38,002 nucleotides of DNA from Chlorobiota bacterium (GTDB lineage: Bacteria; Bacteroidota; Bacteroidia; Flavobacteriales; Flavobacteriaceae), in contig JAADED010000020.1 in the NCBI GenBank assembly GCA_013153605.1, positions 1 to 38,002 of the forward strand, given 5' to 3'. The position numbers and the translations under genes were made by a program. Shown here piece by piece: positions 271 to 27,047 of the stretch (the first letter of the stretch is position 1; the number at the start of each line of letters is the position of its first letter). Below the pieces are notes generated by a model, which did no database searches, was not told where the DNA came from, and saw nothing but the letters and a program-made list of their open reading frames with translations.

Positions 271-300
271 ACGTTTACTTTTACGTTCACCTTCACTTTT
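271..300 (+). repeat. Hexamer array C
   Basis: Five exact-register hexamers: ACGTTT, ACTTTT, ACGTTC, ACCTTC, ACTTTT. The array is bracketed by identical CCGCCTTCGGCGG hairpins at 244-256 and 302-314. With the oppositely oriented array D (747-776) it forms a convergent pair enclosing about 446 bases. That is the same geometry as arrays E and F around the four-helix-bundle gene at 14321-14689. Confidence 0.7.
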
Positions 301-8014: not shown

Positions 8015-8808
8015 CTCCGTTTGTTGGCTTCCTTGATATATTTTTCAAGGGCCATGGTCATGGAAGGCGTTTCTTTGGTGGGCGCTTTGATGTCCACGCG
8101 CAACCCGCGATCCAAAGCGGCCTGATAGGTATTGTTGCCGAATACGGCGATGCGGGTGTCGTTTTGTTTGAAATCGGGAAAATTGTGGAACAAACTTTCG
8201 ATGCCCGAAGGGCTGAAAAAGACCAGCACATCGTAATATACGTCGGCCAGGTCGGAGAGGTCGCTAATGACGGTTTTAAAGAACATACCCGATTTCCAAT
8301 TGATACCCAACGAGTTGAGCAATTGGGGAATTTCGGGTTTCAGTTTATCGCTGGAGGGAAGTAAAAATTTGCCTTGCGGATATTTTTTGATGATTTCACC
8401 CAAGCTTTTCAACGTGCCGTCGCCGTAAAAAATGCGGCGCTTGCGATATACGATATACTTTTGCAAATATTTGGCCACCGTTTCGGAGGGGGTAAAATAG
8501 CGATTGGTATTGGGAATATTGTAACGCATTTCTTCGGCGATGCGAAAATAATGGTCGATGGCGGTACGGCTGGTAAAAATAATGGAATCGTATTGAGACA
8601 AATCGATTTTTTGACGTCGCACGTCCTTGACCGAAGCTCCTTCCACATGGATGAAAGGACGAAAATCCACCTTTACTTTGAGCTTCTTGCTCAAGTTGAA
8701 GTACGGAGATTTTTCGTTTTGCGGTTTGGGCTGGGAGACCAGGATGCTTTTGACTTTCTTGATAAGCGGTTTGTCTTTATTTTCCTGCTTATTCTCCTTT
8801 TTACTCAT
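8011..8808 (-). CDS. hemD: Uroporphyrinogen-III synthase
   Basis: 265-residue cytosolic enzyme that cyclises hydroxymethylbilane to uroporphyrinogen III in tetrapyrrole (heme) synthesis. I start it at the ATG at 8808, which overlaps the stop of the DUF4271 gene as ATGA; the frame stays open far upstream but that part is out-of-frame DUF4271 sequence. The lysine-rich N-terminal tail (about 1-20) precedes ILVSQPKPQ, the normal start of Bacteroidota HemD. Two-lobed fold signatures include DSIIFTSRTAIDHYF in the first lobe and DVLVFFSPSGIESLF in the second. HemD sequences diverge strongly, so the assignment rests partly on the neighbourhood. Confidence 0.88.
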   Translation of the reverse strand: MSKKENKQENKDKPLIKKVKSILVSQPKPQNEKSPYFNLSKKLKVKVDFRPFIHVEGASVKDVRRQKIDLSQYDSIIFTSRTAIDHYFRIAEEMRYNIPNTNRYFTPSETVAKYLQKYIVYRKRRIFYGDGTLKSLGEIIKKYPQGKFLLPSSDKLKPEIPQLLNSLGINWKSGMFFKTVISDLSDLADVYYDVLVFFSPSGIESLFHNFPDFKQNDTRIAVFGNNTYQAALDRGLRVDIKAPTKETPSMTMALEKYIKEANKRS

Positions 8809-13444: not shown

Positions 13445-14263
13445 ATGAAATTTTTCAAGAAGCTTTTTGAAAAGGATATATTCGGCTATAATATTTTCCT
13501 TAAAAAGGTATTGATTTTTATTCTCGGCCTTATTTCCCACCGTCGTTATCACGGATTCAACAAGCTGAAAGTGGAAGGCATGGACATCCTTCGCATCCTT
13601 CCCGACGACCAGGTGCTTTTCATCTCCAACCATCAAACCTATTTCGCCGACGTGGCGGCCATGTTGCACGTGTTTAACGCGGCCCTCAACGGCCAAAACG
13701 ATTTGTCGAAACCGCTGAAATATCTCACCAACATCAAGCACAACATTTATTACGTGGCGGCCAAGGAAACCATGGAATCCAATTGGCTGGCCAAACTCTT
13801 CAAACTGGTGGGAGCCATTACGGTGGAACGTACGTGGCGCCATGCGGGCAAGCCGGTAAAACGCCCCGTTAAATTTCAGGACATCACCAACATTTCCAAA
13901 GCCATCCAAAACGGGTGGGTGATCACCTTTCCCCAAGGAACCACGCGCCCCTTCAAACCCATACGCAAAGGGACGGCCCATATCATTAAGGAAAACAAAC
14001 CCATCGTCATTCCCATCGTCATCGACGGATTCCGACGCGCCTTCGACCGCAAGGGATTGCAAATCAAAAAAAGAGGCATTCTCCAAACCATGGTCATCAA
14101 ACCGCCCCTACCCATCGATTACGAAAACGACACCATCGAAGACATAGTGGAAAAAATCGAATACGCCATCGAACAACATCCCGACATGATCCGGGTGGTG
14201 CCCAAAGAAGAATTGGAAAAAATGAAAGAGCTGGACAAGGAGAGGAAGTTTTGGAAGTATTGA
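13445..14263 (+). CDS. 1-acyl-glycerol-3-phosphate acyltransferase-like protein
   Basis: 272-residue LPLAT/PlsC-family protein, probably acylating lysophosphatidic acid or a related lipid at the inner membrane. After a short amphipathic and hydrophobic N terminus (about 20-35) comes SNHQTYFADVAAM. Here the catalytic His63 and Asp69 are five residues apart (HX5D) rather than the classical HX4D. A second block FPQGTTRPFKPIRKGTAHI (about 160) stands in for the FPEGTR substrate box. PIVIPIVIDGFRRAF matches the fourth block. Length is in range. The hexamer array of the following element starts three bases after the stop. Confidence 0.85.
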   Translation: MKFFKKLFEKDIFGYNIFLKKVLIFILGLISHRRYHGFNKLKVEGMDILRILPDDQVLFISNHQTYFADVAAMLHVFNAALNGQNDLSKPLKYLTNIKHNIYYVAAKETMESNWLAKLFKLVGAITVERTWRHAGKPVKRPVKFQDITNISKAIQNGWVITFPQGTTRPFKPIRKGTAHIIKENKPIVIPIVIDGFRRAFDRKGLQIKKRGILQTMVIKPPLPIDYENDTIEDIVEKIEYAIEQHPDMIRVVPKEELEKMKELDKERKFWKY

Positions 14264-14266
14264 TAA

Positions 14267-14314
14267 ACTTTGACTTTGACTTTGACTTTGACTTTTACTT
14301 TGATTTTTACTTGG
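14267..14314 (+). repeat. Hexamer array E, upstream of the four-helix-bundle gene
   Basis: Eight consecutive hexamers, four perfect ACTTTG units then ACTTTT, ACTTTG, ATTTTT, ACTTGG. It begins three bases after the acyltransferase stop and ends six bases before the ATG at 14321. Being a multiple of three and stop-free, it stays open in the reading frame of the following gene and would encode Leu-Thr repeats if translated. It is inverted relative to array F at 14689-14718. Confidence 0.85.
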
Positions 14315-14320
14315 TTTGGA

Positions 14321-14689
14321 ATGAGAAATTTTCGCAATTACAAAATATGGCAGGAAAGTTTGGATTTGGTGGCGGATGTATATAAACTGATCGCATTATT
14401 TCCGCCGGAAGAAAAATACGGATTGCGTTCTCAAATTGCCCGCGCGGCGGTTTCCATACCCTCCAATATAGCCGAAGGAAGTTCACGCAAAAGCGAACAG
14501 GAATTTATTCGTTATTTGGAAATTTCCATTGGTTCTGCTTTCGAACTGGAAACCCAACTATTGATTGCTCAAAAATTAAATCTCATCCCGAAAGAGCCTG
14601 TGAATCTCATCTTGCAAAAATTGGATCAAATCCAACAACAAATCCATAATTTGATGATTTCGATTCAAAAGAATCAATCGAAAACCTAG
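14321..14689 (+). CDS. Four-helix-bundle protein (IVP/S23-like)
   Basis: 122 residues from ATG 14321. The pattern is that of the four-helix-bundle family first seen in 23S rRNA intervening sequences: YKIWQESLDLVADVYKL in helix 1, then PPEEKYGLRSQIARAAVSIPSNIAEGSSRKSEQEFIRYLEISIGSAFELETQL across helices 2-3, and a Gln-rich last helix. Avd, the accessory protein of diversity-generating retroelements, shares the fold. No 23S rRNA or reverse transcriptase is nearby, so the role here is unknown. Its DNA is clearly AT-richer than its neighbours. It is flanked by inverted hexamer arrays (14267-14314 and 14689-14718), suggesting the whole unit inserted between the acyltransferase and FAH genes. Confidence 0.9.
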   Translation: MRNFRNYKIWQESLDLVADVYKLIALFPPEEKYGLRSQIARAAVSIPSNIAEGSSRKSEQEFIRYLEISIGSAFELETQLLIAQKLNLIPKEPVNLILQKLDQIQQQIHNLMISIQKNQSKT

Positions 14690-14718
14690 TCAAAGTAAAA
14701 GTAAACGTGAAAGTAAAA
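14689..14718 (-). repeat. Hexamer array F, downstream of the four-helix-bundle gene
   Basis: Five hexamers GTCAAA, GTAAAA, GTAAAC, GTGAAA, GTAAAA; on the minus strand they are ACNTTN units. It starts on the last base of the stop codon of the four-helix-bundle gene and ends two bases before the FAH-family start codon at 14721, so it replaces that gene's leader. With array E it forms a convergent pair like terminal inverted repeats. Confidence 0.85.
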
Positions 14719-14720
14719 AA

Positions 14721-15335
14721 ATGAAAATCATCTGCATCGGCCGGAATTATGCCGAACATATAAAAGAACTCCATAACGAGCGACCGGAAGAACCGGTGGT
14801 ATTTATCAAACCCGATACGGCATTGGTGCCCAAAGGGAATCCGCTGTTTCTCCCCGATTTTTCGAACGACGTGCAATACGAAACCGAGTTGGTCTTACGC
14901 ATCAACCGGTTGGGCAAACATATTCCCCGCGAAAGGGCGAAACATTACTACGACGCCATAGGATTGGGGATAGACGTGACGGCCCGCGACCTTCAGCAAA
15001 AATTAAAGGCCGAAGGACTGCCTTGGGAAAAAGCCAAAGCCTTCGATTTTTCGGCGGTGGTGAGCCGCGAATTCATCCCCACGAAAGCCTTCGGGGATTT
15101 GCGAAATATCTCCTTCTCGCTCCGCATCGACGGCGAAACCGTGCAACGGGGCAACAGCCGCGACATGATTTGGGATTTCGACGAATTGATCTCTCACGTG
15201 TCGCGCTATTTTACCCTCCGCACGGGCGACCTCCTTTTTACGGGCTCCCCGCCCGGCGTGGGACGCCTTCGGCGGGATACGGTGCTGGAAGGATTTATAG
15301 GAAACAAAAGCATGTTTAAAATACGCGTCAAATGA
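14721..15335 (+). CDS. Fumarylacetoacetate hydrolase (FAH) family protein
   Basis: 204-residue soluble enzyme of the FAH superfamily, the short YcgM/FAHD1-like type that acts on acylpyruvates or decarboxylates oxaloacetate; the actual substrate cannot be read from sequence. Metal-binding residues are in YETELVLRI (Glu54, Glu56) and near GIDVTARD (Asp85). The lid region contains KAKAFDFSAVVS, and the C-terminal block is LLFTGSPPGVG. The start at 14721 (MKIICIGRNYAEH) is standard. It overlaps cinA by ATGA. Its upstream region is entirely the hexamer array, so expression may come from read-through. Confidence 0.9.
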   Translation: MKIICIGRNYAEHIKELHNERPEEPVVFIKPDTALVPKGNPLFLPDFSNDVQYETELVLRINRLGKHIPRERAKHYYDAIGLGIDVTARDLQQKLKAEGLPWEKAKAFDFSAVVSREFIPTKAFGDLRNISFSLRIDGETVQRGNSRDMIWDFDELISHVSRYFTLRTGDLLFTGSPPGVGRLRRDTVLEGFIGNKSMFKIRVK

Positions 15336-26726: not shown

Positions 26727-27047
26727 TTATTTCACTTCTTCAAGGGATTCCGGTTCTTCTCCTTCGGTGCGCGAATGTTCGCCCGTAAAATAATCGTAAA
26801 GGAAGGTGAGGGTGAAGGTGGGAATGTAATCGGTGGCGCCGGGGATGATTTCTTCCAAAAATTCCACCGTTCCTGCCACTTTACCCGTCGCTCCGGGGTA
26901 CATTTTGACCAATAACCAGGCCGCCACCGGTGCCCATATCATGTCCATGATCTCCCCTATTCCCGGCACCGCGTAAGACAACATTCCGATGCCGTCCAAA
27001 ATAAGGCTGAGCACGAATTTGCGGGTATCGAATCGGCGCATGACCAT
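26727..27047 (-). CDS. Small membrane protein of the CcoN-like operon
   Basis: 106 residues. Hydrophobic segments near 10-30 and 35-50 and a third near 75-90 are followed by an acidic soluble tail (EGEEPESLEEVK). I do not recognise a family. Its ATG overlaps the stop of the 434-residue membrane protein by one base (TAATG), so it is translationally coupled and likely belongs to the same complex or process. An alternative start two codons later (MRRF) is possible. Confidence 0.7.
   Translation of the reverse strand: MVMRRFDTRKFVLSLILDGIGMLSYAVPGIGEIMDMIWAPVAAWLLVKMYPGATGKVAGTVEFLEEIIPGATDYIPTFTLTFLYDYFTGEHSRTEGEEPESLEEVK

Follow-up and report, generated by a model that had tools for sequence, protein, structure and literature searches.

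An S23/IVP four-helix-bundle gene lies between an acyltransferase gene upstream and an FAH-family gene downstream, both named from profile matches, in the window, i.e., the whole stretch of 38,002 nucleotides that was analyzed. The window is contig G000:C80 of genome G000, which comprises 1.62 Mb in 97 contigs and is 96% complete. The last base of the upstream stop codon is 14263 and the downstream gene starts with an ATG at 14721, and the intergenic gap between them is filled by the gene together with two bracketing hexamer arrays of opposite orientation, as was stated in a preliminary description of this DNA. The features of the window are as follows.

14267 to 14314, forward strand: 5' arm of eight ACTTTG-like hexamers, by direct reading (TRF score 71); the S23 ATG lies 6 nt beyond its end.
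14321 to 14689, forward strand: S23/IVP four-helix-bundle gene of 122 amino acids, pI 8.9 (PF05635, TIGR02436).
14689 to 14718, reverse strand: 3' arm of five hexamers, of the type complementary to that of the 5' arm, by direct reading (TRF score 41).
57 to 200, no strand assigned: gene-less two-arm array, of the complementary type at 57–86 and of the ACNTTN type at 171–200.
271 to 300, forward strand: single ACNTTN array without S23, by direct reading.

The units of the 5' arm read, in order, ACTTTG four times, ACTTTT, ACTTTG, ATTTTT, and ACTTGG, and those of the 3' arm GTCAAA, GTAAAA, GTAAAC, GTGAAA, and GTAAAA, with the last G of the S23 stop codon serving as the first base of the 3' arm. 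Complementarity of the two arms was matched by none of 100 dinucleotide shuffles (p = 0.0099). A search of the 1.6-Mb genome with two adjacent perfect units (ACTTTGACTTTG) gave three forward matches and one reverse match, compared with none for the reversed pattern; all three forward matches are overlapping positions within the 5' array of the window. Gene plus arms amounts to approximately 450 bp and is AT-richer than its neighbors, again as first described (GC of 0.361 over 14264–14720 vs. 0.473 for the acyltransferase gene and 0.522 for the FAH gene). Of the related arrays that had been noted at four other places in the window, those at 57–86, 171–200, and 271–300 are clear, while the weaker matches at 755–778, 8669–8686, and 26802–26819 may be due to chance. 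The S23 protein matched PF05635 with 126.4 bits (cut-off 33.8) and TIGR02436 with 123.2 bits (cut-off 24), and its nearest solved structures are 2gsc and 2rld. It was the only such gene found in G000 when the genome was searched for PF05635/S23. An Rfam search of 13900–15000 gave two matches up to an E-value of 1, both far under their gathering scores.

The preliminary description proposed looking for an empty acyltransferase|FAH junction in related genomes, and one is present in four of eight congeners. An FAH match was obtained in six of the eight and was absent in G002 and G003. In G005, G006, G007, and G008, the acyltransferase and FAH matches end 22–38 nt apart with no S23 gene between them. 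The order acyltransferase|S23|FAH is kept in G004, whose S23 is 83% identical to that of the window and is flanked by arms of ACTTTT-like words. In the same junction of G001 (L189, approximately 1036–1150), S23 is absent, and about 115 nt carry inverted arrays built from another word (AAATCCC type). A second site, identified by eye as fadB|fadA, carries S23 in G004, and in G002 an S23 with other words follows fadB, where the contig ends. The fadB and fadA matches are 29–30 nt apart in G003, G005, G007, and G008, and approximately 310 nt in G006 (L240, approximately 1185–1494) contain what appears by eye to be a decayed S23; no close fadA match was found in G000, G001, or G002. Inspection of both compared junctions by eye revealed no target-site duplication. 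Judged by these junctions, the unit is an insertion into places that are empty in congeners.

The arms of other family members were evaluated by aligning 160 nt of 5' flank with the reverse-complemented 3' flank of the same gene, with swapped partners and dinucleotide shuffles as nulls. The first test used 77 usable of 80 loci and was then widened to 199. The loci were the best 80 of 578 confirmed matches to the window protein, the best scores of each search, 8 of 28 plasmid records, and further S23 copies chosen from genomes with many matches. The profile gave 210 S23 matches, of which 199 were full-length, and 191 distinct genes in 187 loci with at least 200 nt on each side were kept. This set is mostly Bacteroidota, includes many draft genomes, and consists of top-scoring loci rather than a random sample; a KSB1 locus, one betaproteobacterial locus, and three viral contigs stand outside it.

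The alignment score had a median of 19 for a gene's own partner arm vs. 11 for swapped partners, and the true partner ranked within the top 5% for 127 of the 191 genes. Complementarity exceeded that of shuffles at p < 0.05 in 158/191 and at p < 0.01 in 103/191, compared with 8/98 at p < 0.05 for other genes from the same loci, which bears out the enrichment of inverted short-word arrays that had been anticipated for the flanks of this family. Kinship among the 191 rows inflates these counts, though dereplication at 60% identity barely changed the proportions (91/112 at p < 0.05). Inverted similarity exceeded direct similarity in 149 loci, the opposite held in 30, and 12 were ties; significant arms were lacking in 33/191. 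For the paralogue Avd, p < 0.05 was reached by one of ten loci above the family cut-off (18 loci minus 7 on short contigs and 1 repeat) and by none of nine under it (9 of 12 used). Two Avd genes of diversity-generating systems (DGRs), L267 and L269, have a short ACTGACA-type array upstream only. Beyond Bacteroidota, p < 0.05 was obtained for Clostridia and Oscillospiraceae (4/4), Bryobacterales (1/1), Lysobacteraceae (1/1), cyanobacterial plasmids (6/8), and viral contigs (6/8), and not for Azonexus (0/1, p = 0.08), with the reservation that taxon labels from record titles may be wrong because many records are metagenome bins. On this comparison, inverted arms are general to S23 genes, and gene and arms very probably constitute one unit. 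No earlier report of such a rule was found among the open-licence papers listed by our searches, which is not proof of its absence; the nearest printed precedent is a remark on heptamers for one species in the portion of PMC4990558 available to us.

The repeated word is usually of 7 nt. Self-identity at lag 7 averaged 0.413 on both S23 flanks, compared with 0.290 and 0.309 on those of 77 control genes, and was 0.37 at lag 14. The preliminary description spoke of a hexamer family; inverted arrays are indeed general, but the hexamer is only the word of this lineage, the 6-nt period of the window being a minority form among the 191, and the rule is 6–8 nt. A G-rich 5' flank combined with a C-rich 3' flank was seen in 124/191 and the opposite arrangement in 7 (15 and 18, respectively, of the 77 control genes); the 3' array of the window, with six G vs. 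two C, runs contrary to the prevailing polarity. Both arms were periodic enough for word reading in 133/191, and in 95 of these 133 the two consensus words agree at all but two positions or better, compared with 18.3% for swapped arms. Variation is concentrated in fixed positions of the word (sum of squares of 5304 vs. a null mean of 4675 and a null maximum of 4836), and positions that vary in one arm tend to vary in the other as well (mean r of 0.50, positive in 78/91). Word lists inspected by eye show a common vocabulary in the two arms more than one exact register. Different S23 genes within one genome mostly have different words by eye, except for tandem copies in G004, and the cyanobacterial plasmid genes are accompanied by GGGAGTA, GGGAACA, and GGCAGAA arrays. 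Both arms of a unit use one word that consists of a constant core and variable positions, and the words differ from unit to unit. For such a pattern of constant core and variable spacer, recognition by a protein is a better fit than slippage.

The words were further compared with the kinship of the proteins. Among pairs of S23 genes without a common neighbor, the median word cosine was 0.14 below 50% protein identity, 0.24 at 60–65% (n = 58), and 0.36 from 70% upward (n = 12). The 139 unrelated-site pairs with at least 58% identity had a mean cosine of 0.230; the highest value among 300 permutations was 0.179. When the 14,792 different-site pairs were taken as a whole, the Spearman correlation between word similarity and S23 identity was weak (0.10), the signal residing in close pairs. 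The ACNTTN-word lineage of the window occupies two unrelated sites in G004, where the S23 at fadB|fadA, which has ACNTTA words, clusters (98/91) with the S23s at acyltransferase|FAH in G000 and G004 rather than with further S23s at fadB|fadA, in a 43-row tree whose bootstrap had not settled. On these comparisons, a word goes with its S23 lineage from one site to unrelated others.

Certain sites recur over many genera, namely fadB|fadA (23/191) and fadA|acyl-CoA dehydrogenase (17/191), and on the protein tree, like site labels lie together (38 changes vs. a shuffled mean of 62.6); this tree has 191 rows, 120 columns kept, and many unresolved forks. Site names were given by eye from protein ends (fadA/B, acyl-CoA dehydrogenase, hemD/E, carA/B, cysD/N, nuoC/D, metH, ffh/folD, infC, and rpmI), and the cas and nrd genes mentioned below were taken from record annotation. 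The dN/dS ratio was 0.034–0.106 in seven same-site pairs, with 0.106 for the window S23 and its counterpart at that site in G004. Of two further pairs, one, made up of recent tandem copies, had a ratio of 0.189, and the other was saturated. In the pairs compared, the S23 protein is under purifying selection. For 54 of 87 site-group members, the gene's own other arm was closer than the median orthologous 5' arm. Concerted evolution is not leaned on here, since this is a modest majority and close members keep similar 5' arms. Recurring, tree-clustered sites and the travel of words with lineages together suggest that long residence and movement both occur. The idea of a mobile mini-element, put forward from the window alone, is supported by the empty junctions and enriched flanks and has to be amended for long residence at conserved sites. 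Movement of the unit, at present or in the past, is likely.

These genomes also contain scattered arrays of similar words without S23. Three consecutive ACNTTN units with up to two mismatches gave 80 matches in G000 vs. 27 for the control. Of 17 stretches taken from this genome, 14 were displayed; 13 of them contain arrays, and L182 resembles a chance match in a coding sequence. The gene-less arrays comprise two-arm copies of approximately 140 bp, such as L174 (247–380) and L177 (173–310), which resemble 57–200 of the window, arrays within other dispersed repeats, and one small intergenic hairpin. The hairpin lies at L175 (186–267) and is followed by a TTRGCNN-type array, between what are by eye infC and rpmI. 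In L171, L172, L173, L176, and L178, hexamer arrays lie inside a larger multi-copy dispersed repeat with GGAATCTC and TCATTCCGA parts. When overlapping units were counted, three consecutive ACNTTA units matched 25 times in G000, 133 in G002, 40 in G004, 4 in G001, 1 each in G005 and G006, and 0 in G003, G007, and G008, with 0–5 matches per genome for the reversed pattern; the array words are thereby nearly confined to some members of the genus. The scattered words of G000 are mostly ACNTTA, which is related but unequal to its ACTTTG/T S23 arms. The only S23 detected in G002 has GGGATTT/AGGATTT words, and an S23 matching the ACNTTA arrays of this genome was not found in its 80%-complete assembly. 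The GGGATTT word matched 146 times in G002 (control, 7), 14 in G001, 11 in G006, 2 in G004, and 0 in the five other genus genomes, G000 included. G001 has arrays with no S23 detected. Scattered arrays and S23 words are thus not strictly paired. Intergenic stretches of G002 (L226–L231) are full of arrays of TTRAAYCG, GACCGGT, GTTGAAGA, GGGATTT, and other words.

The best reading of these observations is that the compact unit is mobile, works somewhat like REPIN/RAYT without a transposase, and is kin to the S23 intervening sequences (IVSs) of 23S rRNA. We give about even odds to the feature in the window being one copy of a widespread compact gene-repeat unit, in which S23/IVP stands between inverted arrays of a lineage word and is their partner. 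The role of S23 as the partner of the array is plausible, though we hold it with slightly less assurance, and its binding to a single strand or hairpin is predicted more tentatively still. To our knowledge, no catalytic activity is known for S23, and Xcc0516 is reportedly a five-bundle assembly, going by the title of its structure paper. An S23 oligomer would recognize the repeated core of its own unit, either on a single strand or on a hairpin formed by the arms. As the partner of the arms, S23 would allow gene-plus-arms units to be copied to new intergenic places by enzymes acting in trans, and arrays without S23 would be copied to such places in the same manner. If S23 recognized the core of its own unit during copying, gene and word would stay coupled, as in REPIN/RAYT. 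A wider scheme is conceivable, and we offer it as a conjecture: S23/IVP proteins would be the partners of self-spreading, transposase-less gene-repeat units, each with its own 6–8-nt word, of which about one would be read per subunit on a single strand; the inverted arrays would remain in step while the word changes; such units would be the origin of over-represented heptamer arrays; and the 23S rRNA IVSs would be copies that landed in rRNA. Against the best reading stand the loose pairing of S23 words with scattered arrays, the mostly ACNTTA words dispersed in G000, the 33 loci with no significant arms, the 30 with stronger direct than inverted similarity, and the lack of an evident target-site duplication. 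The authors of the Coxiella study furthermore suggest, in the part of it available, that S23p is decaying and is not produced in vivo (PMC4990558).

In its logic, the unit comes closest to REPIN/RAYT. There, a gene lies beside inverted copies of its own repeat, many copies occur without the gene, and repeat and gene lineages go together (PMC3116915, as excerpted). The S23 gene likewise has inverted repeats, gene-less copies as in the 13 G000 stretches above, and a coupling of lineages; it differs in that no Y1 transposase was matched in G000 and in that its repeat is an array of 6–8-nt words, not a palindromic REP unit of approximately 20–40 bp. The Coxiella 23S rRNA IVS is closed by a 28-bp terminal stem that RNase III cuts, and its S23 ORF is preceded by GACAGAT heptamers that vary between strains, as described in the available part of PMC4990558. 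It shares with the window unit the protein family and an ORF enclosed by terminal inverted repeats. In contrast, it sits in a 23S rRNA helix, and the S23 units described here lie between protein genes, as between the acyltransferase and FAH-family genes of the window, with unit-specific words and scattered gene-less arrays. As to MITEs, which are marked by inverted ends matching those of a transposase-bearing parent and by a target-site duplication, the window unit has inverted ends, no duplication was evident by eye, and the search for a parent transposase covered Y1.

Intergenic heptamer arrays have an older literature in cyanobacteria, where they are named STRRs. Such arrays resemble those of S23 units in being tandem, degenerate words of approximately 7 nt with constant and variable positions, extragenic, present in many copies, and often placed as close inverted pairs; the 6-nt word of the window departs from them as a minority form. 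In Xanthomonas, 186 and 183 (GGGANTN)n arrays were reported, with 70 close inverted pairs in Xcc and 75 in Xac, and GGGGAYT arrays of Nostoc were treated in the same paper (PMC4692102, in part). Arrays of TAACTGA occur in Beggiatoaceae, cyanobacteria, and five Bacteroidetes, with no partner gene described in the sections available (PMC4679880). A term search found no mention of S23 in the text of either paper.

The main rival to a partner role of S23 is an RNA stem as in the 23S rRNA IVSs. The arms would pair in the operon transcript, RNase III would free the S23 message, and selection on the RNA would keep the arms complementary; cutting of the stem would make insertion into an operon or 23S rRNA tolerated. 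S23 is the ORF of 23S rRNA IVSs, with the cleaved stem and preceding heptamers of Coxiella as precedent (PMC4990558, in part). It runs in the direction of both neighbors in 160/191 loci and opposite to both in 8. The RNA of the window folds slightly better than shuffles (z = −1.89; 4 of 100 shuffles were as good), with the arms partly paired. However, a stem kept in sense RNA should tolerate G-U over A-C mismatches, and no G-U excess was seen: there were 365 G-U-type vs. 451 A-C-type mismatches (p = 0.003, in the wrong direction), and 76 vs. 99 in the core arms (p = 0.10), so that a sense-RNA stem lacks support from this test, whose power is limited if arms are renewed quickly. The common vocabulary of the arms, rather than one exact register, also speaks against such a stem, and we consider this explanation unlikely. 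The same grade is given to the possibility that the arrays came first, as independent dispersed repeats of the STRR kind, and that S23 genes preferentially land in, or survive beside, array hairpins. The many S23-less arrays in G000, G002, and G004, the G001 junction with inverted arrays of another word, and the loose pairing of S23 word and scattered arrays can all be cited for it. Against it, the acyltransferase|FAH junction is bare of both array and gene in four congeners, words track the S23 lineage over unrelated sites, and the density of strong 7-nt arrays is approximately 20-fold higher within 150 nt of S23 (48 in 61.7 kb) than in the rest of the loci (24 in 632 kb).

It is very unlikely that the unit is mobilized in trans by a known enzyme, i.e., a Y1/IS200-like transposase, a RAYT, or a reverse transcriptase from a DGR or group II intron, S23 then being a passenger or an accessory. 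S23 is related to the four-helix bundle Avd, the accessory protein of DGRs (PMC10053308, as far as available), and reverse transcriptase matches were found in four and a Y1 match in one of the nine genus genomes. Nevertheless, neither Y1 (PF01797) nor reverse transcriptase (PF00078) was matched in G000 (96% complete) or in G002 (80% complete), the genome with the most ACNTTA matches, which were searched for these two families, and the Avd genes are without arms. As to membership in a DGR, the window S23 gave only a weak match to NF033474 (E = 2.9e-4; 21.1 bits vs. a cut-off of 80). Ordinary tandem-repeat slippage, by chance on both sides of the gene, is scarcely credible: the simple repeats of bacteria include an excess of heptamers, and a polymerase footprint has been proposed as the reason (PMC4692102, in part), but slippage gives neither reverse-complementary words across the gene in 158/191 loci, nor fixed variable positions, nor empty junctions, nor the word sharing of true partners, and the swapped-arm controls contradict it in agreement with the preliminary description, where slippage was held insufficient for inverted arrays.

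We know of no established function for S23/IVP proteins, and an S23 match was present in 232 of 296 Bacteroidota genomes sampled. A unit of gene and arms links these proteins with intergenic heptamer arrays, the latter having been described without a partner gene in the available text (PMC4692102, PMC4679880), and might give rise to the puzzling short repeats seen in genomes of bacteria. It also offers an alternative reading, as inserted units, of S23 genes in cas loci and other operons. Those in cas loci were earlier listed as an associated function (PMC3936711, in part). In two cyanobacterial plasmids, S23 lies between cas6 and cas4 with short-word arrays around it (L123, 1501–1860; L129, 1483–1851); the arrays of L129, in a type I-D locus by its cas1d annotation, are inverted, and L123 fails the inverted-arm test. 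The S23 genes of cas loci may be inserted units and not parts of the CRISPR systems. In a Nostoc plasmid (L122, 1495–1863), S23 with GGGAGTA arms lies between two ribonucleotide reductase subunit genes and is antisense to both. In L033, L017, and L156, S23 stands between what are by eye two separately encoded parts of methionine synthase (MetH).
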